Positions 44,975 through 64,000 are shown, numbered from the stretch's first letter. The stretch: DNA of 64,000 nt from Haloarcula halophila (GCF_029278565.1 NZ_CP119559.1:1116001-1180000); one strand, 5' to 3'. Made by a program: numbers and translations. The notes: generated by a model from the sequence alone, not told the origin.

Positions 44975-45445
44975 TTACTCCAGTCCGAGGGCTTCGACGG
45001 CGTTGTCGTAGCTGTAGGTGAACTCCTCGTCGATCTCGTCACCGCGGTAGTAGTCGATGAGCCGGCGGATCTTCGACTGCGTGTTCTGGAGCGCACGCTT
45101 GTTCTGGTAGTCCGTCGGGTTCTCGTCCATGTGGTCACGGAGGCGCACGGCCCGTTCGAGGAGGCTCCGGAGGTCCTCGGGGAACTCCGGTTCGGCCTCG
45201 TTGTCCTCCAGGATCTCGGTGACCTTCTTGCCGGTCGCGAGTTTGACGTTCGGGACGGGAGTGCCCTGGACGCCCTCGTCGCGCAGTTTCAGGCCGATCT
45301 CGCTGGGCGAGTGGCCCTGTTCGGCGAGTTCGACAACGCGATCCTCGATGGCATCGGCGTCGACGTCGCTCCACTCCGGGGGTTCGTCTGCCGCCGGCTT
45401 GTCCGAGTCGGACGAGCCACGGCGGCGTGTATGCATTCGTGCCAT
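44975..45445 (-). CDS. rps15: Small ribosomal subunit protein uS15
   Basis: 156 residues starting MARMHTRRRGSSDSDKP, the archaeal S15 (S13e-like) form. It shows VVELAEQGHSPSEIGLKLRDEGVQG in the archaeal N-terminal extension and DYQNKRALQNTQSKIRRLIDYYR in the RNA-binding part. First gene of the cluster. Confidence 0.96.
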   Translation of the reverse strand: MARMHTRRRGSSDSDKPAADEPPEWSDVDADAIEDRVVELAEQGHSPSEIGLKLRDEGVQGTPVPNVKLATGKKVTEILEDNEAEPEFPEDLRSLLERAVRLRDHMDENPTDYQNKRALQNTQSKIRRLIDYYRGDEIDEEFTYSYDNAVEALGLE

Positions 45446-45862
45446 AGTTGTGTTGGAACTGCACGAACCGCTCGTCGCTACCGGTCGCGAGGCGTATTGG
45501 CACCGTCCGGTGCCGAACACGGCCGCAATCCCGAGCCGTGGAAGCCCACGGCGTGTCAGATTTGCGGTCGTGCTGTTCCCGTCCGACGTTGGTCTACCGA
45601 CGCGTATAACGGTTACTACTCGCTTCGAACAGACTGTCCCGGGACAAGCGACGACGGGAGTGGTGGGACCGGGCCGGCCGTCGGCGGACAGCGAACGAAC
45701 CTGTCGGCGCGACGGATCGGCCACAAATATCATATGTGAAAACTGGATAGGTAGGAGTATCCATACGCGAACACGAGTCAGGACAATGGGGTCACGAGAG
45801 CGGGTCGCTGTGGGCGGTTGTCGGGACAGCACGACCGACACAGCGTCGACGGAGCGTGAGGT
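45446..45862. other. 417-base intergenic region with divergent promoters
   Basis: It separates rps15 and the large pilin-like gene. An AT-rich patch CACAAATATCATATGTG at 45722-45738 and the short palindrome GGATA-N8-TATCC at 45746-45763 are possible control sites. A plus-strand frame here has a CQIC motif but no other sign of a gene. Confidence 0.4.
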
Positions 45863-47668
45863 ATGGTGAGCAACCCACCAGGAATCGGGAAGCGGGGCCA
45901 GAGCAGTCCGCTCGGTGTCATTCTCATCCTCGCGATCGTCGTCAGCGGCACCGCGCTGACAGTCGCACTCGGAGCGGAAGCGTTCGGCTCGACACAGAAT
46001 CAACTGTCGATAGAGCGTGCCGAGAAGTCGATGACGCAACTGGACTCGCAGGCGGCGATGGTCGCCCTCGGGAACTCCCAGGTCCAGGAAGTGTCACTCG
46101 CCACGTCGTCGGGCGACAGCTATCGCGTCGCGGAGAACACCGGCTGGATGGACGTCACCTACACGAACCTCACCGGTGGGGGGTCGACGACGATCATGAA
46201 CGAGTCGATGGGTGCGATCGTCTACGACAACGACGACCGTGAGATCGCCTATCAGGGCGGGGGAGTCTGGCGATCCGACGGCGAGAACAACGCCGTGATG
46301 GTGTCGCCGCCGGAGTTCCACTACCGGGAGGCGACGCTGACACTCCCGCTAGTGACTGTCTCGGGTGACGAATCGATCGACGGCCGAGCCGTCATCAGCC
46401 GCAACACGTCCCAGGCGTACTTCCCCAACGAGTCGACCAACGGTAACTTCACGAACCCGCTGGAGCGCAGCGAGGTCGAGGTGACCGTCCAGAGCGACTA
46501 CTACCGGGCCTGGGGGACCTTCTTCGAGCAGCGGACGACGGGCAACGTCAGCTACGATCATCCCAACAGCCGCGTGACCGTCGACCTCGTCACGCCGCTA
46601 CAGGCCAGCGACGTCAACTCGGCGGCCGCGAGCCTGGCCGCCAGCGGGACCTTCGAGGTCAACGGTGCGGCAAAGAGCGTCTGTCGGGCCGACACCTACA
46701 CTGACAGCTACAACTCCTCGGGGACGAGCGACGACTACTGTAGCCAGACGCCGGGCAACAAGGGTGACGTCATCTACGGGAACGATATCGACATCAGCAG
46801 CGGGTCCGGTGGCGACAACTTCTACGGCTCGCTGGTCTCGGGCGGGACCGTCAAGGTCGGCAACGGCGGCGGTAAACCCGACGTCGGCGGCGACATCAAC
46901 TACACGACGGCCTGCCAGCCGAGCATCGCCGACTGTCAGTCCAGGATCACGACGGCGAGCGGGACCGTCAACCAGATCGACGGAATCCAGAAGCGCGGCG
47001 CGCTCGATTATCTCATCCGGAGTACAGTCGAGGAGGCCGACGACAGCAACGGCAACGGGGGAACGAGTAGTATCTCCGGTGACACGCTCGATTACGGCGC
47101 CGCGGGCCCGTCCGACGAGGTCACTATCGGGCCGGGTAACTACTATCTGGACCGGATCGACGCCTCCGGCAAGGAGATCTACTTCGATACGACGAGCGGG
47201 AACGTCACGCTCTCGGTGCGGGAGTACATCCACCTCGTCGACAGCGACATCGAGGTGCTGGGCGACGGCGTGGTGTTCGTCTACGTCGAAGGCGCCGGCC
47301 CACACACCGAAGACCTCTACTTAGACAAGGATTCGGCGATCACCAACGCCGGCGACGACGCGAACCAGTTCCGTATCTTCGGCCAGGCCAACTTCACGGG
47401 CCGGATCGGCTCCGGCGGCGGCGGGAGCGACCCCGCCAAGTACGTCGGCGTCATCTACGCGCCGCCGGGCAACGGCGGGACCGGCGACGTGAACCTCGAC
47501 TTCGGCGAAGTGTACGGTGGGTTGGTCACCGGGACGACGACGATCAACAAAGGGTCGATCCACTACGACGAAGCACTCCGTGAGAAACAGACCCTGACTC
47601 GCGGTGACGACGTCGTCCGGGTCACGTACCTGCATATCTCGACCAACCGCGTCAACGTCACCAGCTGA
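45863..47668 (+). CDS. Large pilin-like surface protein (DUF7289-type)
   Basis: 601 residues. The N terminus KRGQSSPLGVILILAIVVSGTALTVALG is a short basic segment then one hydrophobic helix, as in archaeal type IV pilin-like proteins. The rest is extracellular: rich in N, T, S and G, with many N-x-S/T sites, two cysteine pairs near residues 273-286 and 352-359, and a repetitive beta-rich part (DYGAAGPSDEVTIGPGNYYLD). It is convergent with the orphan five-gene pilin-like module, so possibly a client or partner. I recall the group as DUF7289, unverified. Confidence 0.75.
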   Translation: MVSNPPGIGKRGQSSPLGVILILAIVVSGTALTVALGAEAFGSTQNQLSIERAEKSMTQLDSQAAMVALGNSQVQEVSLATSSGDSYRVAENTGWMDVTYTNLTGGGSTTIMNESMGAIVYDNDDREIAYQGGGVWRSDGENNAVMVSPPEFHYREATLTLPLVTVSGDESIDGRAVISRNTSQAYFPNESTNGNFTNPLERSEVEVTVQSDYYRAWGTFFEQRTTGNVSYDHPNSRVTVDLVTPLQASDVNSAAASLAASGTFEVNGAAKSVCRADTYTDSYNSSGTSDDYCSQTPGNKGDVIYGNDIDISSGSGGDNFYGSLVSGGTVKVGNGGGKPDVGGDINYTTACQPSIADCQSRITTASGTVNQIDGIQKRGALDYLIRSTVEEADDSNGNGGTSSISGDTLDYGAAGPSDEVTIGPGNYYLDRIDASGKEIYFDTTSGNVTLSVREYIHLVDSDIEVLGDGVVFVYVEGAGPHTEDLYLDKDSAITNAGDDANQFRIFGQANFTGRIGSGGGGSDPAKYVGVIYAPPGNGGTGDVNLDFGEVYGGLVTGTTTINKGSIHYDEALREKQTLTRGDDVVRVTYLHISTNRVNVTS

Positions 47669-47764: not shown

Positions 47765-48541
47765 TTACCGCTCGATGTCGAGAGCGATGTCGTAGGCCGG
47801 AACGAGGAGCCGTTCCAGTGAACTACCGCTGCCGAGAGTACATCTGACGAACGGGTCGTCGCTGGCGTCGGTCCCCTGGATGCAGTTGCTGAACCCTTCG
47901 GCCTCCAGTGCGGTCTCCCAGTGGTTCCGCCGGGGCGACGTGACGTTGACGTAGACCTCGTCGTAGTCGTCGTCACTACTGCTGTCGTCCGTCTCGGCGA
48001 TAGGGACCGTCGTCTCGACCATATCGGCCCGCACCAGCGCCGTCGATCCGCCAACGCTCGTCCGCCCCGGGGACACCGTCGCCACGATCGGGACCAACAC
48101 GCGGTCGGACTGGACGACGAGGGGCGGGTCCCGGACGACGAGTCCGCCGTCACGTTGCGTCCGGAACACCGCGCCGCCCTCGTAGACGAGTCGGCGGTCG
48201 TCGCCGGCCTCGTAGACGAGCGGACGGACCGCACGCGTGACGGTGACGTCACCGCTTGGCCCGTCGGTCGCGGTAACGTTGATCGTCACGTTGTCGCCCG
48301 TGTACAACTCTACTCCCTGGAGACTGATCTCGGTCGCCCGGCTCGGCGCGCCCCGCTGGTAGATGTCGGCCATGTTCTCCGAGAGGACGTCGAAGGCGCG
48401 CTCGGCGTTGTTGAGTTGCTCGGCGTCGCGAGCGTCCTGAAGCGTCTGGACGCCCGAGACGGAGACGAACACGATCGAGGTCAGGATGATCACAAACACC
48501 AGCGTGAAGCTCAGCACCTCACTCGCGCCCCGATCAGCCAT
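47765..48541 (-). CDS. Pilin-like protein, fifth gene of orphan module
   Basis: 258 residues. MADRGASEVLSFTLVFVIILTSIVFVSVSGVQ forms a single N-terminal membrane anchor, then a helical stretch (ARDAEQLNNAERAFDVLSENMADIY), then a beta-rich outer domain with one cysteine pair (FSNCIQG, VRCTLGS). The start at 48541 overlaps the previous gene by eight bases. Resembles the DUF7289 group (from memory). No function is known. Confidence 0.75.
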   Translation of the reverse strand: MADRGASEVLSFTLVFVIILTSIVFVSVSGVQTLQDARDAEQLNNAERAFDVLSENMADIYQRGAPSRATEISLQGVELYTGDNVTINVTATDGPSGDVTVTRAVRPLVYEAGDDRRLVYEGGAVFRTQRDGGLVVRDPPLVVQSDRVLVPIVATVSPGRTSVGGSTALVRADMVETTVPIAETDDSSSDDDYDEVYVNVTSPRRNHWETALEAEGFSNCIQGTDASDDPFVRCTLGSGSSLERLLVPAYDIALDIER

Positions 48542-48971
48542 TGGACACCTCCAGGTCACCGCTGGTGGTGTTCCTGACCGTGACGGCTCCCCCGTCGACG
48601 GTCGAGGACGACAGCGACGTCCGGAGGTCCACGGGGAGCGTCACCACGATGTCGGGGTTGTTCATCGAGAGGACCAACTGCTGGCTCGCGGGATCGAGTT
48701 CGATGTCGTAGGTCCGGCCGGTAAGGCGCTCCGGGAACGTCTGCTCGATCCGGACCGTCGTCGATCCGTCACCGGCGACGACGAGTCGGTCCGCCCGCTG
48801 GAGGTCGGCGTTGATCTGCTCGCCGATGACACGCAGTTCCGAGCGGACGACCTGCTCCTGCTGGCCCTCGACGAAGCTGGTCCCCGAGAACAACAGTCCC
48901 GTCACCAGCAGCGACGCGATCGCGATACTCAACACGTAGTTGAGCGTCGACGAGACTGCGCGGTCGGTCAT
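48534..48971 (-). CDS. Pilin-like protein, fourth gene of orphan module (DUF7266-type)
   Basis: 145 residues. RAVSSTLNYVLSIAIASLLVTGLLFSGTSFVEGQQEQVVRSEL is closely similar to the fourth gene of the second module (VSPAVTQALTIGISTLLVTGLLIAGGSLIEGQTENVAREG). A single anchor is followed by a small beta domain. It overlaps the third gene by four bases. Confidence 0.78.
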   Translation of the reverse strand: MTDRAVSSTLNYVLSIAIASLLVTGLLFSGTSFVEGQQEQVVRSELRVIGEQINADLQRADRLVVAGDGSTTVRIEQTFPERLTGRTYDIELDPASQQLVLSMNNPDIVVTLPVDLRTSLSSSTVDGGAVTVRNTTSGDLEVSNG

Positions 48972-49918
48972 GCCGGCTCACCCGGTGCGACCCGGACCTC
49001 GGTCTCGTAGGTTATCGACGAGCCGTCGTAGCGGTAGGTGACAGTGACCGCGTAGATCCCGTGTCGAGTGCCGGGATCGTCCGTCCCGATGCCACTCGTC
49101 AGGTTCCCGTTCGTGTACTCGTCCTGGTCGACGACCAGCGAGTAGTTCCCGCTGACGAGGTGGCTGTTGTTGTACTCGATGTCGTACCCGCTACCGACGC
49201 CCTCGCCGAACGCGAGCGGCGCGCACGGTTCGCCGCCGACGCGACCGCCCGTGAGATCGATGTCGACGGGACCGCCGGTCGGCGATGCGGTACAGACGCC
49301 AGACTCGCCGCCGAACTCTCTGACGCCGACCGCAATGTCACCGGAGGCCTGTTCGGTGACGTTGACTCGCCAGGTATCCGACCCGTCGGTGACGTTCAGC
49401 CGGAACTCGTCGGTCTTCGTCCCGCCGAAGTTGGCACCACCGGCAGTATTGGCGTCGTATATCCGCATCGTGTACGCCCGGGCGTTGACACCGGTAGCGA
49501 CGGTCCAGTTGTCCGTCGAAGCCGCGCCTCTGAACTCCGAACCACCACTGGCGTTGTCGACGATCCGTGTCCCGTGTGTGTATGCCGGCCCCGAGACGGT
49601 GACGATCCGTCCACTGACCGACTGCTGTCTCGTAACTGCCTGGGAGACGTTGTCGACACTCGTGGCGACACTGCTGTTGAGAGCCGGCTCTGTGGAGCTG
49701 TTGTACGTGTTCGCGTTGGTCACGGCACGGCCGACGGACTGCTCGACGCTGTGACGGAGTAGTAACGCGTCGTCGCTCCCCGCTGTCTCCCCGCGGCTCG
49801 CGAGGTTCTCGGTGAAGATCGCCGCGTTGACCACCAACGCAAGCGCGATGAACGTCACCGCCAGCGCGAACGCCGCGATCAGGATGATCTGGCCGCGGTC
49901 GTCGCTCAGATCCGCCAC
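48968..49918 (-). CDS. Pilin-like protein, third gene of orphan module (DUF7261-type)
   Basis: 316 residues. DRGQIILIAAFALAVTFIALALVVNAAIFTENLA is the anchor, matching the paralogue at 62758 (SRGQLLLVGGIAIAIVFLLSIILTNSLV). A helical segment (LLLRHSVEQSVGRAVTNANTY) and a long beta-rich, N/T/S-rich outer domain follow with paired cysteines (VCTASP, GEPCAP). It overlaps the second gene by 13 bases. Confidence 0.78.
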   Translation of the reverse strand: MADLSDDRGQIILIAAFALAVTFIALALVVNAAIFTENLASRGETAGSDDALLLRHSVEQSVGRAVTNANTYNSSTEPALNSSVATSVDNVSQAVTRQQSVSGRIVTVSGPAYTHGTRIVDNASGGSEFRGAASTDNWTVATGVNARAYTMRIYDANTAGGANFGGTKTDEFRLNVTDGSDTWRVNVTEQASGDIAVGVREFGGESGVCTASPTGGPVDIDLTGGRVGGEPCAPLAFGEGVGSGYDIEYNNSHLVSGNYSLVVDQDEYTNGNLTSGIGTDDPGTRHGIYAVTVTYRYDGSSITYETEVRVAPGEPA

Positions 49919-50490
49919 GTGATCACCTCCACACGGACGACGTTGTAGACGTTCCCACCGGTGTCCTGCATGTAGAAACTCGTCGCGTTGGTCACGCCCG
50001 ATCCCGGAATCGGTTCCTCGCTGGCCGAGTACAGCGGGTCGTCGTCGGTGATCGTGACGGTCCGACTCGTCACGACGGCGTTGTCGCTCGGAACCCCCTG
50101 ATCGACCAGTGGTCGTCGGAGCGACTCGCCGTCCGGTTTCTGGAAGACGATCCGGACGTTGTACGAGATGCTCCGGTCGTCGAACGAACGCGAGAGCATC
50201 CGCCCGAAGGTCGTGTTCGGCGGGCCGTTGGTGTAGTATCCGATGTCGCTCGTCCCGTGGAACCGCTCCGAGGAGTTGTTCCAGAAGAGGACCGTCGATT
50301 TCAGCGCCCCTTCCTCGGCAGCAGCCGACAGGATGCCGTTGGTGACCGACCGCTGCTGGTTCTCGATATGCTGGCTGGACGTACTCGCCGACAGCGGCGT
50401 CACTGCAGTCGTCTGGAGCGCGAAGATGATACTGCTCAACAGTAGCAGGCCCGCGACGACCGCTTCCAGCGTATGTGCTTGTCCGCGCAT
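49906..50490 (-). CDS. Pilin-like protein, second gene of orphan module (DUF7288-type)
   Basis: 194 residues. MRGQAHTLEAVVAGLLLLSSIIFALQTTAVTPLSAS is the anchor with a glutamate shortly after the RGQ, recalling the Glu+5 of type IV pilins. Outer part: SRTVTITDDDPLY and the end YNVVRVEVITWRI, both echoed in the paralogue at 62162. It starts one base after the first gene's stop. Confidence 0.78.
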   Translation of the reverse strand: MRGQAHTLEAVVAGLLLLSSIIFALQTTAVTPLSASTSSQHIENQQRSVTNGILSAAAEEGALKSTVLFWNNSSERFHGTSDIGYYTNGPPNTTFGRMLSRSFDDRSISYNVRIVFQKPDGESLRRPLVDQGVPSDNAVVTSRTVTITDDDPLYSASEEPIPGSGVTNATSFYMQDTGGNVYNVVRVEVITWRI

Positions 50491-50491
50491 G

Positions 50492-51034
50492 TTACCACAT
50501 CACCACTTCGACGGTGACTGCTTCACCGTGGAGTGAGACGACCCGCGTCGCCGTCACCGAGTCGGCGTTCGTCTTCGGTGCCTGGTCGCCAGCGGCGAGC
50601 GTCACGTCGTTCGTCCCGGTACAGCCGCTGTCGGTCTCGGCGAGCGCAGCGGCGCTGTCGTCCCAACACAGGCGGTCCGATCCCGGATCGGGGTCGGCCG
50701 AGACGTTACCGATGACCGTGACGTTGACGTTCTCCCGGGGAGCGATCCCCACGCGTTCGTTCGTCGTCGAGCCGGCGAAGTGACAGCCACCCGGTGTCGT
50801 GCCGTCGAAGAACGCGACGGCACACTCCCGGTCCCAGACGTTGGGCTCCGACGGCGACCCCAACAGGCCAAGTGCCAGGTCGTCGGCGACGCGGTTGGCC
50901 GTGACTGTCTCCGACGGCGTCCCGTCGGTAAACGTCGTCAGGATCCCTGGAACGAACAGGTAGACGAAGAGAACGATGGCGAGGAAGAGGCTGATTCCGA
51001 CTGCGAAATCGAGCGTCGTCTGTCCACGACTCAT
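50492..51034 (-). CDS. Pilin-like protein, first gene of orphan module (DUF7287-type)
   Basis: 180 residues. MSRGQTTLDFAVGISLFLAIVLFVYLFVPGIL is the anchor. The outer part has cysteines in ECAVAFFDGTTPGGCHF and LCWDDS...SGCTG, and ends ATRVVSLHGEAVTVEVVMW, much like the paralogue at 61662 (ATRVISL...W). The ATG at 51034 is chosen because it begins the RGQ anchor; the frame runs up to 51145. First gene of the minus-strand operon. Confidence 0.78.
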   Translation of the reverse strand: MSRGQTTLDFAVGISLFLAIVLFVYLFVPGILTTFTDGTPSETVTANRVADDLALGLLGSPSEPNVWDRECAVAFFDGTTPGGCHFAGSTTNERVGIAPRENVNVTVIGNVSADPDPGSDRLCWDDSAAALAETDSGCTGTNDVTLAAGDQAPKTNADSVTATRVVSLHGEAVTVEVVMW

Positions 51035-51289: not shown

Positions 51290-51361
51290 GGGCTCGTAGA
51301 TCAGGGGTAGATCACTCCCTTGGCATGGGAGAGGCCCCGGGTTCAAATCCCGGCGAGTCCA
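51290..51361 (+). tRNA. tRNA-Ala (anticodon GGC)
   Basis: The acceptor GGGCTCG pairs with CGAGTCC (one G-U), discriminator A at 51361. The anticodon arm is CTCCC-TTGGCAT-GGGAG, so the anticodon is GGC. The T arm is CCGGG-TTCAAAT-CCCGG. No CCA is encoded and no intron is seen. Confidence 0.95.
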
Positions 51362-57108: not shown

Positions 57109-59601
57109 ATGGCAATTGAGGACACAGATGGGGCAGTCGACAACATAGGGGATGTCGACAATCGGGATGCTGCCGTGGGTGAGTACACGTGGGACGATTT
57201 CAGACAGGAATACCACGGCGGCGGACGCTTCGACCGGAGCGAGTATCTCGGATTCGAGCCGCGGTATCTCGAACAGTTGATCGAGGACGGGGGTGCCGTC
57301 GCGAAGACGATCAGGGAGCCGTTGGACGCCTCCCTCGATCCCGACGTGACGCCGGTCGCGAAAGACCGGTACAGTTGGGAACATTTCAAGCGCGAATACC
57401 ACTACAAGGGCGGCGAACCGCCGGCGAACACGGCCGACGCGGAACCGTTCGACGGCGAACAGTACCTCGGATTCGCTCCCGACGACACCCAGGACCGTGT
57501 CGATGAGGCCGGGCGTATCGGGACGGCCCTGGCCGAATACGTCGACGAACACACCGTCGACGTCAACGAAGAACTGGACGAAGACGAGTTCTTCTCGACT
57601 CGGGAGGGGTATACGACCGTCGTCAACCGATACGATCTGGAAAAGTCCGTCCCGGAGAACAAGAAATCACACTTCCGCGAGATCGAACGCTACTGGGTGA
57701 ACAAACCCTACGCGTGTGTTGTTATCTTCCACTCCCGGAAGGAAAACGAGAAGAAGTACTACGTCATCGAACCACATCTCAACCCGATCGAAAACGACCT
57801 CAAGGAGTTCCTCTCGCGGAAGCTCAAGACAGCGATCAAATACTCCGAGGACGACGTTATCGTCCAGGGATCGACCGAGGACCGAGCACAGGTCATCCAG
57901 CGTGAAGCGGAGGATCTGCTCTCCCGGTACGACCTCTACGACGGCACTGTCTCCAGTGGGACCGGTGAAGGCGGTGGGATGTTCGACCAGTTCAAGGCGA
58001 TGCTCGGGATGGGTCCCGACACCGAGCAGACCAGCGGCCAACTCACCGGGCTGTCGACGCGTCCGGAGCCGAAGATCCTCGAAGACGACCCGGCGACACT
58101 CAACGAGTACCAGGTCGAGAAACTGCTGTACGAACTCAAGCGGAACTTCGTCGGCTACGCACGCATCGACCCGGTCAAACACGACATCAACGTCGAGGAC
58201 ATCTCCTGTGACGGCTACAACTCGCGTGTGTTCGCCTACCACACCGACTACGAGCAGATCATCTCCAACGTCGAACACGGCGAGCAGGAACTGGACGACT
58301 TCGTCGTCAAACTCGCCCAGCGGTCGGGGAAGGGTATCTCGAAACGCCAGCCCCAGGTCGACGCGACCCTCCCGGACGGCTCACGTGCTCAGTTGACCCT
58401 GGGACGGGAGGTCTCGGACCACGGGACTAACTACACCATCCGTCAGTTCAAGGACGTCCCGTTCACGCCGATCGATCTGATCAACTGGAACACGTTCAGT
58501 CTGGACGAGATGGCGTTTCTCTGGCTCTGTATCGAGAACCACAAGTCGCTCATCTTCGCCGGGGGTACTGCCTCGGGGAAGACGACGAGCCTGAACGCCG
58601 TCTCGCTGTTCATCCCCTCGAACTCCAAGATCGTCTCCATCGAGGACACCCGCGAGGTCGAACTCCCCCAGCGCAACTGGGTCGCGAGCGTCACCCGACC
58701 GTCGTTCGGCCAGGACGACACCGGCGACGTCGACGAGTTCGACCTGCTGGAGGCCGCGCTCCGCCAACGACCCGACTACATCGTCATGGGTGAGATCCGT
58801 GGGGAAGAGGGGCGAACCCTCTTCCAGGTCATGTCAACGGGTCACACCACCTACACCACCTTCCACGCCGACTCGGTCGGCGAGGTCATCAAGCGGTTCA
58901 CGACCGAACCGATCAACGTCTCGAAGACGCTGTTTACGGCGCTGGATCTGGTCTCGATCCAGACCCAGACCCGTGTCGACGGCAACAAGGTCCGGCGGAA
59001 CAAGTCCCTGACCGAGATCAACGAGTACTCCGCGGAGAACGACGAGATCAACGTCCGTGACGTCTACGAGTGGCGTGCCGAGACCGACGAGTACATCCAG
59101 ATGGGCAACTCCAACACCCTCGAAGAGGTCAAGTTCGACCGCGGGTGGACCCAGGAGAAACTCGACGAGGAACTGTTCAAGCGCAAGGTCGTCCTGGCGT
59201 ATCTCATCGAGCAGGGGCTGAACACCTACACCGAGGTCGCCGCGACCATCCAGGCGTTCATCAACGATCCGGATACCATCCTCACGCTCATCGCGAACGG
59301 GCAACTCGAACTCTCGCTTGAGGACCTCCGGGAGATGGAGTCGGTGCAGATCGATATCGATCCGGAGAAAGAGGAGATGGTTCCGCGACCGGAGGCACCC
59401 GAGGAGATGCTCGAAGAGAGCAAGGACATCCTCGACAACGCACAGCCGCTGTTCGATCAGTTCATGAGCCGCGAGACGCCCGATATCGTTTCGGCGCTGA
59501 TGGACGGCGACACCCTCCAGGAGGACGAAGAGGAAGAGGAAGACGAGGTCGACTTCGGTCAGTTCGTTCCCAAAGCTGGCGCGGAGGCTGACGACGGATG
59601 A
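57109..59601 (+). CDS. pilB: PilB-family type IV pilus assembly ATPase
   Basis: 830 residues. The motor domain is in about residues 340-720: Walker A GGTASGKTT (485-493), the Asp box SIEDTREVELP, Walker B region DYIVMGEIRGEEG and the His box TGHTTYTTFHAD. The N-terminal 150 residues carry a duplicated module: YTWDDFRQEYH...YLGFEP (about 26-51) and YSWEHFKREYH...YLGFAP (about 88-124). The tail is acidic. It hydrolyses ATP at the membrane to drive pilin polymerisation through the PilC-like protein encoded four bases into its end (overlap). Confidence 0.93.
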   Translation: MAIEDTDGAVDNIGDVDNRDAAVGEYTWDDFRQEYHGGGRFDRSEYLGFEPRYLEQLIEDGGAVAKTIREPLDASLDPDVTPVAKDRYSWEHFKREYHYKGGEPPANTADAEPFDGEQYLGFAPDDTQDRVDEAGRIGTALAEYVDEHTVDVNEELDEDEFFSTREGYTTVVNRYDLEKSVPENKKSHFREIERYWVNKPYACVVIFHSRKENEKKYYVIEPHLNPIENDLKEFLSRKLKTAIKYSEDDVIVQGSTEDRAQVIQREAEDLLSRYDLYDGTVSSGTGEGGGMFDQFKAMLGMGPDTEQTSGQLTGLSTRPEPKILEDDPATLNEYQVEKLLYELKRNFVGYARIDPVKHDINVEDISCDGYNSRVFAYHTDYEQIISNVEHGEQELDDFVVKLAQRSGKGISKRQPQVDATLPDGSRAQLTLGREVSDHGTNYTIRQFKDVPFTPIDLINWNTFSLDEMAFLWLCIENHKSLIFAGGTASGKTTSLNAVSLFIPSNSKIVSIEDTREVELPQRNWVASVTRPSFGQDDTGDVDEFDLLEAALRQRPDYIVMGEIRGEEGRTLFQVMSTGHTTYTTFHADSVGEVIKRFTTEPINVSKTLFTALDLVSIQTQTRVDGNKVRRNKSLTEINEYSAENDEINVRDVYEWRAETDEYIQMGNSNTLEEVKFDRGWTQEKLDEELFKRKVVLAYLIEQGLNTYTEVAATIQAFINDPDTILTLIANGQLELSLEDLREMESVQIDIDPEKEEMVPRPEAPEEMLEESKDILDNAQPLFDQFMSRETPDIVSALMDGDTLQEDEEEEEDEVDFGQFVPKAGAEADDG

Positions 59602-61643
59602 GTCTCGATACCCGGGGGCAACAACAGCTAAGTGACAACGGGACGCTGGGGGACACCTTCTACCCGGCATACCAGATGCTGTTCGACGAGGACAGCGACT
59701 TCGTCGGCAGCGTCGAGAAGAAACTCTCCCAGGCCCGGATGGCGGACAACGTCGAGATGTTCCTCGCCCGGGCACTCGCCGTCGGTATCATCTCCGGTAT
59801 CGCGTTGTGGCTGCTCGGGACCTTTCTGGGCGTCGTCTTAGTCGAGTTGTTCTCGCTGACCGGCGAGGAACTGGAACTGCTCGGGATCACCGTCTCCGAC
59901 TCGGTAGCGGGGATCATCAACATGCTGAAGATCCCGCTATTGATCCTGATTACGGGGTTGGTGTTCGGAGCGATCGGGTTCGCCATCGGCTTTGGATCGC
60001 TCGTCTCGATCCCGTATTTCAGGGCCAACGCCCGCGAGCGTGAGATCAACGTTCTGCTGTCCGATGCCGTCTCTTTTATGTACGCGCTCTCAGTGGGGGG
60101 ACTGAACCAACTGGAGATCCTCCAGGCGATGGCACAGGCCGACGACACGTACGGTGAAGTCGCCCTCGAGTTCCAGTCGCTCGTCCTGGAGACGGAATAC
60201 TTCGACACCGACTACCGGACGGCCGTCCGGAACCAGGCCCTAGAGACCCCGTCCGACGAACTCTCACAGTTCCTCACCGACATGCTCTCGATCATCAACT
60301 CCGGTGGGGACATGACCTCGTTCCTCGAAGACCAGAAGGAGAAACACATGCGGACCGCCCGCCAGGAACAGGAGAAGATGCTGGAGACCTTGGAGCTGTT
60401 CGGCGAGATGTACATGACCCTCTCGCTGTTCCCACTCTTGCTCATCATCATCCTCGTCATCATGTCGATGATGGGTAACGCCCAGCAGATGCTCATCTAC
60501 GGGACGGTCTACGTCCTGATCCCGTTGGTCGGCGTCGGCTTCCTCGTCCTCACGTCGACGGTCACCCAGGACTCGATCGGTGACGGCTACCTGCGGCCCA
60601 ACTCCGGCGAGGAGGACATCGTCGTCGACGAAGGTGTCGGCGTGTTCAACCTCGGCCTCGTCGAGCGCTACACCGGTGAGTTCAGTGTCTTCGATCGGAT
60701 CAAGAGCCGGGAAGGGACCTACGAACTGGTCGGAATCCTCGCGGAGCCACACTACTTCTTCCGTGACCACCCGCTGTTGGTGCTCGGGCTGACGATCCCG
60801 ATCTCGATCGTCGCGGTCGTCGCCGCCGTCCTCCTCGGGTTCGCCCCGCTCCAACTGGAGGGTCCCGGCGGGTTCATCCAGAACCCGGTCCGGTCGACGT
60901 TCTTCTGGGTGTACATGCCGATGTACATCAACTTCCTTCCGTTGACGATCTTCTACGAATGGAACCAACGTTCGCGAAACGCCATCGTCAACAACCTCTC
61001 GGAAAACCTGCGGAAACTCGCCTCGGCAAACGATACAGGGATGACGCTGCTTGAATCGATCAAGGTCGTCTCCGAGACCTCCTCGGGTAAGCTCTCCGAG
61101 GAGTTCGAGACGATCCACGCGAAAGTCAACTACGGGACCAGTCTGAAACAATCACTCAGGGAGTTCAACAACAAGTACCACGTCCCACGGCTGGCCCGGA
61201 CAGTGAAACTGATCGCGGAGGCACAGGAAGCCTCCAGTCAGATTCAGGACGTCCTGTCGACGGCCGCACAGGCCTCCGAGAACCAGGACGACATCGATCG
61301 GGACCGAAAGTCCCGAACGCGGATGCAAGTTGTCATTATCCTTATGACCTATCTCACGCTGCTTGGAGTGATGGCCCTGCTGAAGACGCAGTTCCTCGAC
61401 GTGATGTCCGGATTGGCAACCCAGGCGTCAGGATCGAGTAGTTCAGCCGCCGGTGGCGGGCAGTTCGGCGGGAACGTCGATACGGAGGCACTGTCGATGC
61501 TGTTCTTCCACGCGGTGACGCTCCAGGCGATCCTGTCGTCGTTCATCGCCGGATATATACGTGAGGTGAAAATAGCAGCGGGTGTTAAGTTCGCGGTCGT
61601 CCTCCAGACGATCGCACTCGCGGTGTGGATCGCGGTGGGATGA
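59598..61643 (+). CDS. pilC: PilC/TadC-like membrane platform protein (type II secretion F fold)
   Basis: 681 residues with two T2SSF-type repeats, about 150-310 (LLSDAVSFMYALSVGGLNQLEILQAMA) and about 450-610 (LSENLRKLASANDTGMTLLESIKVVSE), and seven to nine membrane helices. It forms the inner platform that takes pilins from the membrane. The start ATG overlaps pilB by four bases. The small pilin-like genes follow 18 bases later. Confidence 0.92.
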   Translation: MSLDTRGQQQLSDNGTLGDTFYPAYQMLFDEDSDFVGSVEKKLSQARMADNVEMFLARALAVGIISGIALWLLGTFLGVVLVELFSLTGEELELLGITVSDSVAGIINMLKIPLLILITGLVFGAIGFAIGFGSLVSIPYFRANAREREINVLLSDAVSFMYALSVGGLNQLEILQAMAQADDTYGEVALEFQSLVLETEYFDTDYRTAVRNQALETPSDELSQFLTDMLSIINSGGDMTSFLEDQKEKHMRTARQEQEKMLETLELFGEMYMTLSLFPLLLIIILVIMSMMGNAQQMLIYGTVYVLIPLVGVGFLVLTSTVTQDSIGDGYLRPNSGEEDIVVDEGVGVFNLGLVERYTGEFSVFDRIKSREGTYELVGILAEPHYFFRDHPLLVLGLTIPISIVAVVAAVLLGFAPLQLEGPGGFIQNPVRSTFFWVYMPMYINFLPLTIFYEWNQRSRNAIVNNLSENLRKLASANDTGMTLLESIKVVSETSSGKLSEEFETIHAKVNYGTSLKQSLREFNNKYHVPRLARTVKLIAEAQEASSQIQDVLSTAAQASENQDDIDRDRKSRTRMQVVIILMTYLTLLGVMALLKTQFLDVMSGLATQASGSSSSAAGGGQFGGNVDTEALSMLFFHAVTLQAILSSFIAGYIREVKIAAGVKFAVVLQTIALAVWIAVG

Positions 61644-61661: not shown

Positions 61662-62168
61662 ATGAACAATAGGGGACAAACGCCACAGGACTTCGCTGTC
61701 GGAGCGAGCATCTTGCTCCTCACGATCATCGGGACCTTCGTGTTCATTCAGGGCGGTGGGCTCTCAGTGTACGAAGACCCCGTGACAGCGATCGAACAGC
61801 CACAGGCCGACAGAGTCGCGTCGTACATCGTCGAGAACTACAGCGTCAGTGACAATCGGAATACGCTCCGCTACGACGAGCCAGGCGGGATCGACAGACT
61901 CCCGTCGGACCTCGGGGATCTCTCTTCACACGCGGGGGTCAACGTCTCGTCGGATAGACGGACAGATCCGACACTCAGCGTGAGTATCGTAAACAACTCG
62001 ACGTTGCAGTCCGGAGAGCTCCGTCCGCACACCGGGGCAACAGATCTCGCGTGGGGTGCAGAGTACGACAACCAGACCGCCTCGACTGCGACGCGAGTTA
62101 TCAGCCTCAACAACGACACAAACGACGTCTGTGACCCGATCTGTTGGTTGGTGGTGCGCGCATGGTGA
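61662..62168 (+). CDS. Pilin-like protein, first gene of pilB/C-linked module (DUF7287-type)
   Basis: 168 residues: MNNRGQTPQDFAVGASILLLTIIGTFVFIQGGG anchor, then an outer domain ending ATRVISLNNDTNDVCDPICWLVVRAW, which mirrors the paralogue at 50492. The ATG at 61662 has a GGTGG sequence before it; an upstream GTG at 61650 would add four residues. Confidence 0.8.
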   Translation: MNNRGQTPQDFAVGASILLLTIIGTFVFIQGGGLSVYEDPVTAIEQPQADRVASYIVENYSVSDNRNTLRYDEPGGIDRLPSDLGDLSSHAGVNVSSDRRTDPTLSVSIVNNSTLQSGELRPHTGATDLAWGAEYDNQTASTATRVISLNNDTNDVCDPICWLVVRAW

Positions 62169-62764
62169 GTGGCTCCCGTGGCCAGGCGTACACGCTCGAA
62201 GGCGTCTTGGCGGCGATCCTCGTGATCTCGGCGACGGTGTTCGGGATCACTTCGATCGACACGCGTGCCTGGGAAGACGGAACGAGAGAGGAAACCCGTC
62301 GGCTCGAAGCCCGGGCCGACGACCTATTGACTGTCAGCAAGAACACTGGCGCACTGGAAAACGCCGTGCTCTGCTACAATTCGGGCCGATCGCGCATCAA
62401 CGGCAACAATTCGAGCAACCCGGCGGAGTTCGAGGAGATGCTCAACCTGACCTTCGACTCCCGGGGGAACCAGTACAACATATACTTCAACTACCTCAAC
62501 GAGACCGGTGAGGAACGCGTCACGGAACTCGTCTCCGAGAACTCGCCCGCGAGTGCGAACCGCCCGTCGACAGGTGCCGCCACCGTGACACGGACCGTCG
62601 CGATAACCGACGACATGCGGGTCCGGACCAACAATGCGTCGAAATCGAACGCCTGTGGGAACGAGGGACCGAGTGTAGAGTCGATATCGAGTTTCTACAT
62701 CCCCGATGCCGATGACAAGACACAACTGTACAATCTGGTGGAGGTGCGACTGATCGTATGGTGA
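62162..62764 (+). CDS. Pilin-like protein, second gene of pilB/C-linked module (DUF7288-type)
   Basis: 200 residues: SRGQAYTLEGVLAAILVISATVFGITS anchor; VTRTVAITDDMRV and the end YNLVEVRLIVW match the paralogue at 49906. It has many asparagines (possible glycosylation) and a cysteine pair (VLCYN, NACGN). It overlaps the first gene by seven bases and the third by seven. Confidence 0.8.
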   Translation: MVSGSRGQAYTLEGVLAAILVISATVFGITSIDTRAWEDGTREETRRLEARADDLLTVSKNTGALENAVLCYNSGRSRINGNNSSNPAEFEEMLNLTFDSRGNQYNIYFNYLNETGEERVTELVSENSPASANRPSTGAATVTRTVAITDDMRVRTNNASKSNACGNEGPSVESISSFYIPDADDKTQLYNLVEVRLIVW

Positions 62765-63678
62765 GCGCTGCCGATTCCCGTGGCCAGTTGCTGCTCGTCG
62801 GCGGGATCGCGATCGCGATCGTGTTCCTGCTGTCGATCATTCTCACCAACAGCCTCGTCGTGACCTCGTATACGGCGACCCCCGAGAGCGCCGACCGGAT
62901 CGAAGAAGTCGAGGACCGCGAAACGGCCGTTCAGCAAGACCTCACGACCATCGCGACGGCAGTCCGCAGCAACACGACGTTCTCGGACTACAACTCCTCG
63001 CTCAACGCGTCGCTGCGGAACTACACGCGGTATCGAACGCGGGTCAGCGGCTCACAGTCGGGTGTGTACATCAATGCGACGTTGAACAGGACGGCGTCAG
63101 AGGGGAACATCACGAGCCAAACGGGTTCGAGCCCAACCAACTTTCAACGACCAGATCCAAGCGGACCTGGTCCAGGTTATGACTGGACAATAGCCAACGA
63201 CGTAGATCAAATAGTGCTGTTCAATCTCACACTATCCAATGTTATCGGTGGGCCATCGAATACGTTCACTATTGAAGTAACTGGTCAAGGTGGGAGCGGG
63301 AGTAGTTGGAGACTTGAAGCCGTACCATCCGGAGGGGATATTCGGATCGATACCACTACGGGAACAGATGTCTGCCCTTCGGGAACCAGCGATCCAGAGT
63401 TGAATCTGATTGCCGGCACCTGTAAAGGATCTAGTGGTCCTCCGGAGAATTTCACTACGTTTGAAGACACTTTGGATAAACCGTACAATATCGAGATTAG
63501 GAACGGAAACAAAGTCAATGATGGTAAGTACTGGTACGGTTCTACAGGTGAATTCCCGAGCACCAGTTACAATTCGGGCGATTACTCACCGTATCCAATC
63601 ACTCCCGCCGTCGATCTCACCTACACCGGCCCACAGACCGGCTACAACCGCACCATCATGCTGGAGAACAGCACATGA
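62758..63678 (+). CDS. Pilin-like protein, third gene of pilB/C-linked module (DUF7261-type), with low-GC outer domain
   Basis: 306 residues: SRGQLLLVGGIAIAIVFLLSIILTNSLVV anchor, then ESADRIEEVEDRETAVQQDLTTIATAVRSNTTF helix, then an outer beta-rich domain. The DNA for about residues 120-280 (63115-63600) has much lower GC and more A/T-ending codons than the rest of the gene. A cysteine pair DVCPSG and GTCKGS lies in that part. It ends with an ATGA overlap to the fourth gene. Confidence 0.8.
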   Translation: MVSAADSRGQLLLVGGIAIAIVFLLSIILTNSLVVTSYTATPESADRIEEVEDRETAVQQDLTTIATAVRSNTTFSDYNSSLNASLRNYTRYRTRVSGSQSGVYINATLNRTASEGNITSQTGSSPTNFQRPDPSGPGPGYDWTIANDVDQIVLFNLTLSNVIGGPSNTFTIEVTGQGGSGSSWRLEAVPSGGDIRIDTTTGTDVCPSGTSDPELNLIAGTCKGSSGPPENFTTFEDTLDKPYNIEIRNGNKVNDGKYWYGSTGEFPSTSYNSGDYSPYPITPAVDLTYTGPQTGYNRTIMLENST

Positions 63679-64000
63679 TTGGGTCGTTGTTCGCCGACAC
63701 ACGCGGTGTCTCGCCGGCGGTTACACAGGCGTTGACCATCGGCATCTCGACGCTCCTGGTCACCGGTCTGTTGATCGCCGGTGGGTCGCTGATCGAGGGA
63801 CAGACCGAAAACGTCGCCCGCGAGGGCCTGATCGACATCGGTTCGGGTGTCGCAACCGATCTGGTCCGACTCGACCAGTTCAACACGTCGACGCTGAACT
63901 CCGACATCGAGTTCCGGTCGCGCTATCCCGAGCGCGTCGCCGGCGAGCAGTACCGGATCTCGCTCGTTCCGACGAGCAGCCAGACCAGAATCTACGTCAA
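63675..64000 (+). CDS. Pilin-like protein, fourth gene of pilB/C-linked module (DUF7266-type), cut by window end
   Basis: The first 108 residues are visible. RGVSPAVTQALTIGISTLLVTGLLIAGGSLIEGQTENVAREG has the archaeal pilin-like RGVSP junction and the same anchor as the gene at 48534. The frame stays open to base 64000. The fifth member would be expected just outside the window. Confidence 0.8.
   Translation, partial: MIGSLFADTRGVSPAVTQALTIGISTLLVTGLLIAGGSLIEGQTENVAREGLIDIGSGVATDLVRLDQFNTSTLNSDIEFRSRYPERVAGEQYRISLVPTSSQTRIYV

Follow-up and report, generated by a model that had tools for sequence, protein, structure and literature searches.

The window analyzed here is a stretch of 64,000 nucleotides from Haloarcula halophila (GCF_029278565.1, NZ_CP119559.1:1116001-1180000). 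On its minus strand, between positions 47765 and 51034, lie five ORFs that abut or overlap one another, with distances between successive genes (1 to 5) of +1, −13, −4, and −8 bp, bearing out the tight packing described in the original prediction. All five encoded proteins passed the Pfam gathering cut-off, each for a family of unknown function:

50492..51034 (−), gene 1: DUF7287 pilin-like protein, 180 aa (PF23958, E 4.5e-40), start MSRGQTTLDF, 4 Cys
49906..50490 (−), gene 2: DUF7288 pilin-like protein, 194 aa (PF23959, E 2.8e-64), start MRGQAHTLEA
48968..49918 (−), gene 3: DUF7261 pilin-like protein with a predicted concanavalin-like sandwich head, 316 aa (PF23922, E 1e-9)
48534..48971 (−), gene 4: DUF7266 pilin-like protein, 145 aa (PF23928, E 9e-25), start MTDRAVSSTL
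47765..48541 (−), gene 5: DUF7289 pilin-like protein, 258 aa (PF23960, E 1.9e-66), start MADRGASEVL; an alternative longer start is possible at 48559

Each of the five proteins carries an archaeal prepilin-like R[GA] motif within its first residues, followed by one hydrophobic helix, and the R[GA] start is also present in the listed homologues of the set. The basic/RGQ start proposed for all five holds as far as R[GA] is concerned, but RGQ itself is confined to genes 1–3 (gene 4 has DRAVS and gene 5 DRGAS). Homologues of gene 1 keep the motif as R[GA]Q, and among 67 DUF7288 homologues R2, Q4, L8, and E9 (R..Q...LE) are invariant. A prepilin-like filter (R/K-G/A within 20 residues, then a strongly hydrophobic 20-mer) was passed by 9 of the 302 reading frames in the whole window, seven of which belong to this set, its convergent neighbor, or a paralogous set described below; four of the five proteins pass the hydrophobicity filter, gene 4 being under the threshold. 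The expected N-x-S/T sites were found in all five (2, 4, 10, 1, and 3 for genes 1–5), while the cysteine pairs expected in each have a counterpart in only three (4, 0, 2, 0, and 2 cysteines), genes 2 and 4 having none. Pilin_N (PF07790) matched none of the five, either when they were scanned against Pfam to E 0.1 or when the genome was searched with it, and was found above cut-off in 18 other genes of the same genome. An NCBIfam search of the set gave sub-threshold chance matches only.

The surroundings of the set include a convergent gene, a divergent tRNA gene, and a second, motor-linked pilin-like set:

45863..47668 (+), convergent: DUF7289 pilin-like N-terminal part fused to DUF7305, 601 aa (PF23960 and PF23981)
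51290..51361 (+), divergent: tRNA-Ala(GGC), directly upstream of gene 1
57109..59601 (+): PilB-type secretion ATPase, 830 aa (PF00437; PilB3_N and PilB3_C below cut-off only)
59598..61643 (+): PilC/TadC platform protein, 681 aa (PF00482)
61662..62168 (+): paralogous DUF7287 of the PilC-linked set (PF23958, E 1.3e-28)
62162..62764 (+): paralogous DUF7288 of the PilC-linked set (PF23959, E 2.5e-46), 29% identity to gene 2
62758..63678 (+): paralogous DUF7261 of the PilC-linked set (PF23922, E 1.3e-5, just under cut-off), 24% identity to gene 3
63675..64000 (+): start of a paralogous DUF7266, cut at the window end; DUF7266 and DUF7289 continue at L009 676-1904

The statement that no ATPase or platform gene accompanies the five genes is correct within the operon itself. 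Only 6 kb away in the window, however, are a PilB-type ATPase, PilC, and a second set of five genes paralogous to the first. The PilC-linked set has the same five families in the same order as the detached set, and the two pair gene by gene at 24–41% identity (blastp). From the presence of the pilin set and the sub-threshold PilB3-like parts, we infer that the window's ATPase is of the PilB4 type. The convergent DUF7289-DUF7305 protein is a candidate large adhesive subunit: a large convergent DUF7289-type gene comes after 25 of the 26 detached sets and after 58 of the 72 others, and such genes carry a DUF7305, DUF7308, or CARDB domain in the tested cases. Convergent to the PilC-linked set is a 1267-aa protein with a DUF7289 start and weak PKD/Fn3-like matches (L009:2243-6046, minus strand). 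Another ATPase locus of the same genome (G000:C1:1331484-1335050) has an 861-aa DUF7289 frame nearby.

The distribution of the system was surveyed in an evenly drawn sample of 59 Halobacteria genomes, with DUF7288 and this kind of PilC as markers. Each marker was present in 55 of the 59; 54 genomes had both, three had neither, and each occurred alone in one (Fisher p 5e-4, an optimistic value given that the genomes are related). Judged by the position of DUF7288, PilC is immediately followed by the set in 42 of 45 cases outside the Haloarculaceae, where the five families follow PilB-PilC in identical order, and in 9 of 18 inside this family, to which the window belongs. Detached sets were found at loci of Haloarcula, Halomicroarcula, Halomicrobium, Halapricum, Halorientalis, Halosimplex, and relatives, nearly all of those examined having a divergent tRNA-Ala(GGC) gene directly upstream. 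Halosimplex, Haloarcula pellucida, and Halomicroarcula rubra have PilB-PilC without a set in cis and a tRNA-Ala set 2–9 kb away; these genomes also have further DUF7288 copies elsewhere, accompanied by a second PilC in the latter two species and by none in Halosimplex. In one further genome (G002) unrelated genes come after PilB-PilC, and the sole set is about 1.4 Mb distant. The prediction that the five proteins are pilin-like and depend on PilB/PilC encoded elsewhere is thus supported both by the 42 of 45 sets directly behind PilC and by the several Haloarculaceae PilB-PilC pairs without a cis pilin.

Some loci depart from these arrangements. At L022:1-5085 (genome G050) the divergent set is opposite in orientation to PilC, and none of the three sets of this genome directly follows PilC. 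Possible remnants of a tRNA-Ala set are a lone DUF7287 beside tRNA-Ala (L027:15222-15812, plus strand) and a locus with only DUF7287 and a shortened DUF7288 match (L071). At L037:3730-8672, PilC and the tRNA-Ala set are separated by several minus-strand ORFs that have no assigned function and include one of 605 aa. Use of the tRNA-Ala gene as an integration site may explain the separation of set and PilC.

A tree of four concatenated genes placed all 26 detached sets in one clade (SH-aLRT 99), nested among the PilC-linked sets of other families, with most PilC-linked Haloarculaceae sets forming a separate clade. An AU test rejected the idea that the two sets arose by a recent duplication within the Haloarculaceae (p-AU 5e-5); in this test the groups to be joined, the detached and linked Haloarculaceae sets, were named after the tree had been seen. 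Single-gene trees recovered the linked clade for all four genes, at supports of 25 to 97, and the clade of all 26 detached sets for DUF7287 only, not for DUF7288, DUF7266, or DUF7289. In the PilC tree, the Haloarculaceae are monophyletic, with a Natronomonas-containing group as sister. Most simply read, a divergent set took over the place behind PilC that the ancestral one had held. These sequence comparisons indicate that in the Haloarculaceae the ancestral set is the detached one, kept beside tRNA-Ala(GGC), and that a separately diverged set usually follows PilC. An origin as an orphan module, as the original prediction had it, is not supported; in this reading the set represents the ancestral pilins of the haloarchaeal PilB4-type pilus system already known (PMC4858521) and became detached later.

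Structure models were compared for two of the five proteins. The AlphaFold model of DUF7288 (pLDDT 92) consists of a helix (residues 3–59) and a small alpha/beta head, for which no significant fold match in the PDB was found (Foldseek best 0.37); the pilin fold was not among the matches, and no PDB sequence profile matched DUF7288. DUF7261 (pLDDT 87.9) is modeled with N-terminal helices and a strand-rich head. Foldseek gave no significant match for it (best 0.0036), and its VIA matches, at middling Z scores of 7.0–9.0 and tied with many sandwich folds, were mostly concanavalin-like sandwiches, including GH32 C-terminal domains, GH16 glucanases, galectins, LG domains, and the lectin-bearing minor pilin PilC of Streptococcus sanguinis (7oa7/7oa8, Z 7.7). 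The model of DUF7261 suggests a concanavalin-like sandwich head, which may bind glycan. GspH-K, PilV/W/X, and TadE/F/G were not among the matches listed for either model. Three designed Ig-like proteins that matched DUF7261 in the search of PDB sequence profiles were taken as chance resemblances.

DUF7261 is the fastest changing member of the set, with a mean identity of 38% vs. 46–56% for the other four; it was not found in some Halobacteriaceae loci and is duplicated in others. Such a pattern might be expected of a head-bearing accessory subunit. Some of the DUF7261 proteins of other species are longer; a Halapricum member (L103:1479-3404, plus strand) has FG-GAP-like repeats above the Pfam cut-off, and others have weak Ig-like matches.

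Three kinds of known system invite comparison. The PilB4-type locus is known from computational work on haloarchaea, including the Haloferax volcanii HVO_1160 locus (Makarova et al., 2016; PMC4858521), and comprises an ATPase that is specific to Halobacteria and has extra N- and C-terminal parts, a TadC/PilC platform, and a pilin set that includes one shared family (PMC4858521). The window's PilC-linked operon and the loci of other families likewise carry ATPase, platform, and pilin set, and we infer that the window's system is the counterpart of the H. volcanii locus; the Haloarculaceae differ in that their ancestral set is detached and its position in cis is occupied by a set that diverged separately. 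The PilB3-PilC3 locus of H. volcanii, which encodes no pilins and serves PilA-family pilins in trans (PMC4858521, PMC6491452), offers a precedent for motor genes working with trans-encoded pilins (there PilA1-6), whereas the unit that moves in the present case is a fixed set of five genes, none of them matching Pilin_N. Minor pilins form the third case. The S. sanguinis tip complex of PilA, PilB, and PilC, one subunit of which bears a concanavalin-like lectin module (PMC9934059), resembles the present set in being a small minor pilin set and in the DUF7261 match noted above; unlike that complex, the present one is a prediction, sequence similarity between the two was not detected, and the Z score is tied with those of unrelated lectin-like folds. 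The GspH-I-J-K and PilV-W-X sets, which the original prediction had offered for comparison, are similar in that four to five subunits, each with a single N-terminal helix and one of them large, are encoded together, but for DUF7288 and DUF7261, the two modeled proteins, no sequence or fold match to them appeared among the matches listed.

Taken together, we regard the five genes as probably the ancestral pilin-like set of the conserved haloarchaeal PilB4-type pilus, now detached and serving in trans as a tip complex, and we give this reading a probability of about 0.72. That the detached set works in trans with a PilB4-type PilB/PilC is, from the genomic arrangements, most likely, because some Haloarculaceae PilB-PilC pairs lack a cis pilin and one genome has its only set about 1.4 Mb away. 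The N-terminal helix of each protein is predicted to insert it into the membrane, and a prepilin peptidase would cut at the R[GA] motif. PilB and PilC encoded elsewhere (in this genome 6 kb off, where they also bear the second, divergent set) would then draw the subunits into the filament. The leading role for the resulting complex is that of a tip adhesin and priming complex, combining initiation with adhesion at a presumed tip position: DUF7287, DUF7288, DUF7266, and DUF7289 would form its scaffold as pilin-like parts, DUF7261 would display the concanavalin-like head as a possible glycan binder, and the convergent DUF7289-DUF7305 protein would be its large adhesive partner. The adhesin idea in the original prediction gains some support in this way, from the DUF7261 head and from the adhesin-like large partner. 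As Pilin_N is absent from the five but present in 18 other genes, the filament body may be of the PilA type. More tentatively, and with the odds against it, one Haloarculaceae PilB/PilC motor could serve both a cis and a trans tip set, each complete with five subunits and the two anciently diverged from each other, so that cells could switch the adhesive tip, including its lectin-like head, on a single pilus machine.

Four other readings compete with this one. The same distribution of Pilin_N means that the five need not serve PilA pilins, and for the PilB4 locus Makarova et al. (2016; PMC4858521) have predicted a major pilin of its own and suggested a structural role for potentially all of its pilins. 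The five would then be a complete filament set of one major and several minor pilins, from which PilB4/PilC4 build a separate pilus. We consider this a serious but less probable alternative, as no small, abundant major pilin candidate stands out among the five, and a fixed order of single copies would be more like a stoichiometric complex. The choice of motor is also a matter of probability: seven loci in the genome pass the ATPase cut-off, which leaves the partner of the set short of proof, and in H. volcanii PilB3-C3 can replace PilB1-C1 (PMC6491452). Service of the detached set by a different pair, e.g., of the PilB1 or PilB3 type, nevertheless seems unlikely when 42 of 45 such sets outside the Haloarculaceae adjoin this PilC and both are absent together in three genomes.

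Minor pseudopilin sets are typical of type II secretion systems (T2SS), and the linked motor genes contain T2SSE and T2SSF domains; however, the partners of the five carry adhesin-like modules and related archaeal loci are described as pili (PMC4858521), making it rather improbable that the five are pseudopilins of a T2SS-like secretion machine and not part of a surface pilus. That they are ordinary membrane-anchored surface proteins with a merely similar N-terminal anchor would fit their diverse heads and the lack of a PDB pilin match for DUF7288, but is very hard to reconcile with the invariance of R..Q...LE in DUF7288 and with the fixed operon with PilB-PilC.

If the proposed tip complex is correct, five haloarchaeal families of unknown function gain a testable joint role and a named likely motor. 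Genomes in which motor and set are far apart, or in which two sets accompany one motor, are natural experiments that bear on how archaeal PilB/PilC pairs choose among pilin sets, and, judging by the modeled lectin-like head of DUF7261, archaeal pili may be equipped with tips dedicated to glycan binding, cf. S. sanguinis. Our literature search found no paper naming these DUF families. The PilB4-type locus and the service of pilins in trans by PilB3 were already known (PMC4858521, PMC6491452); new, as far as that search shows, are the detachment in the Haloarculaceae, the cis replacement by an anciently diverged set, and the predicted concanavalin-like head of DUF7261.

Two further observations concern expression signals in the window. 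A scan for sigma-70-type promoters returned nothing, as expected for an archaeon. An Rfam S15-Halobacteria ribosomal protein leader was identified at 45517-45582 (−), upstream of the gene ending at 44975.
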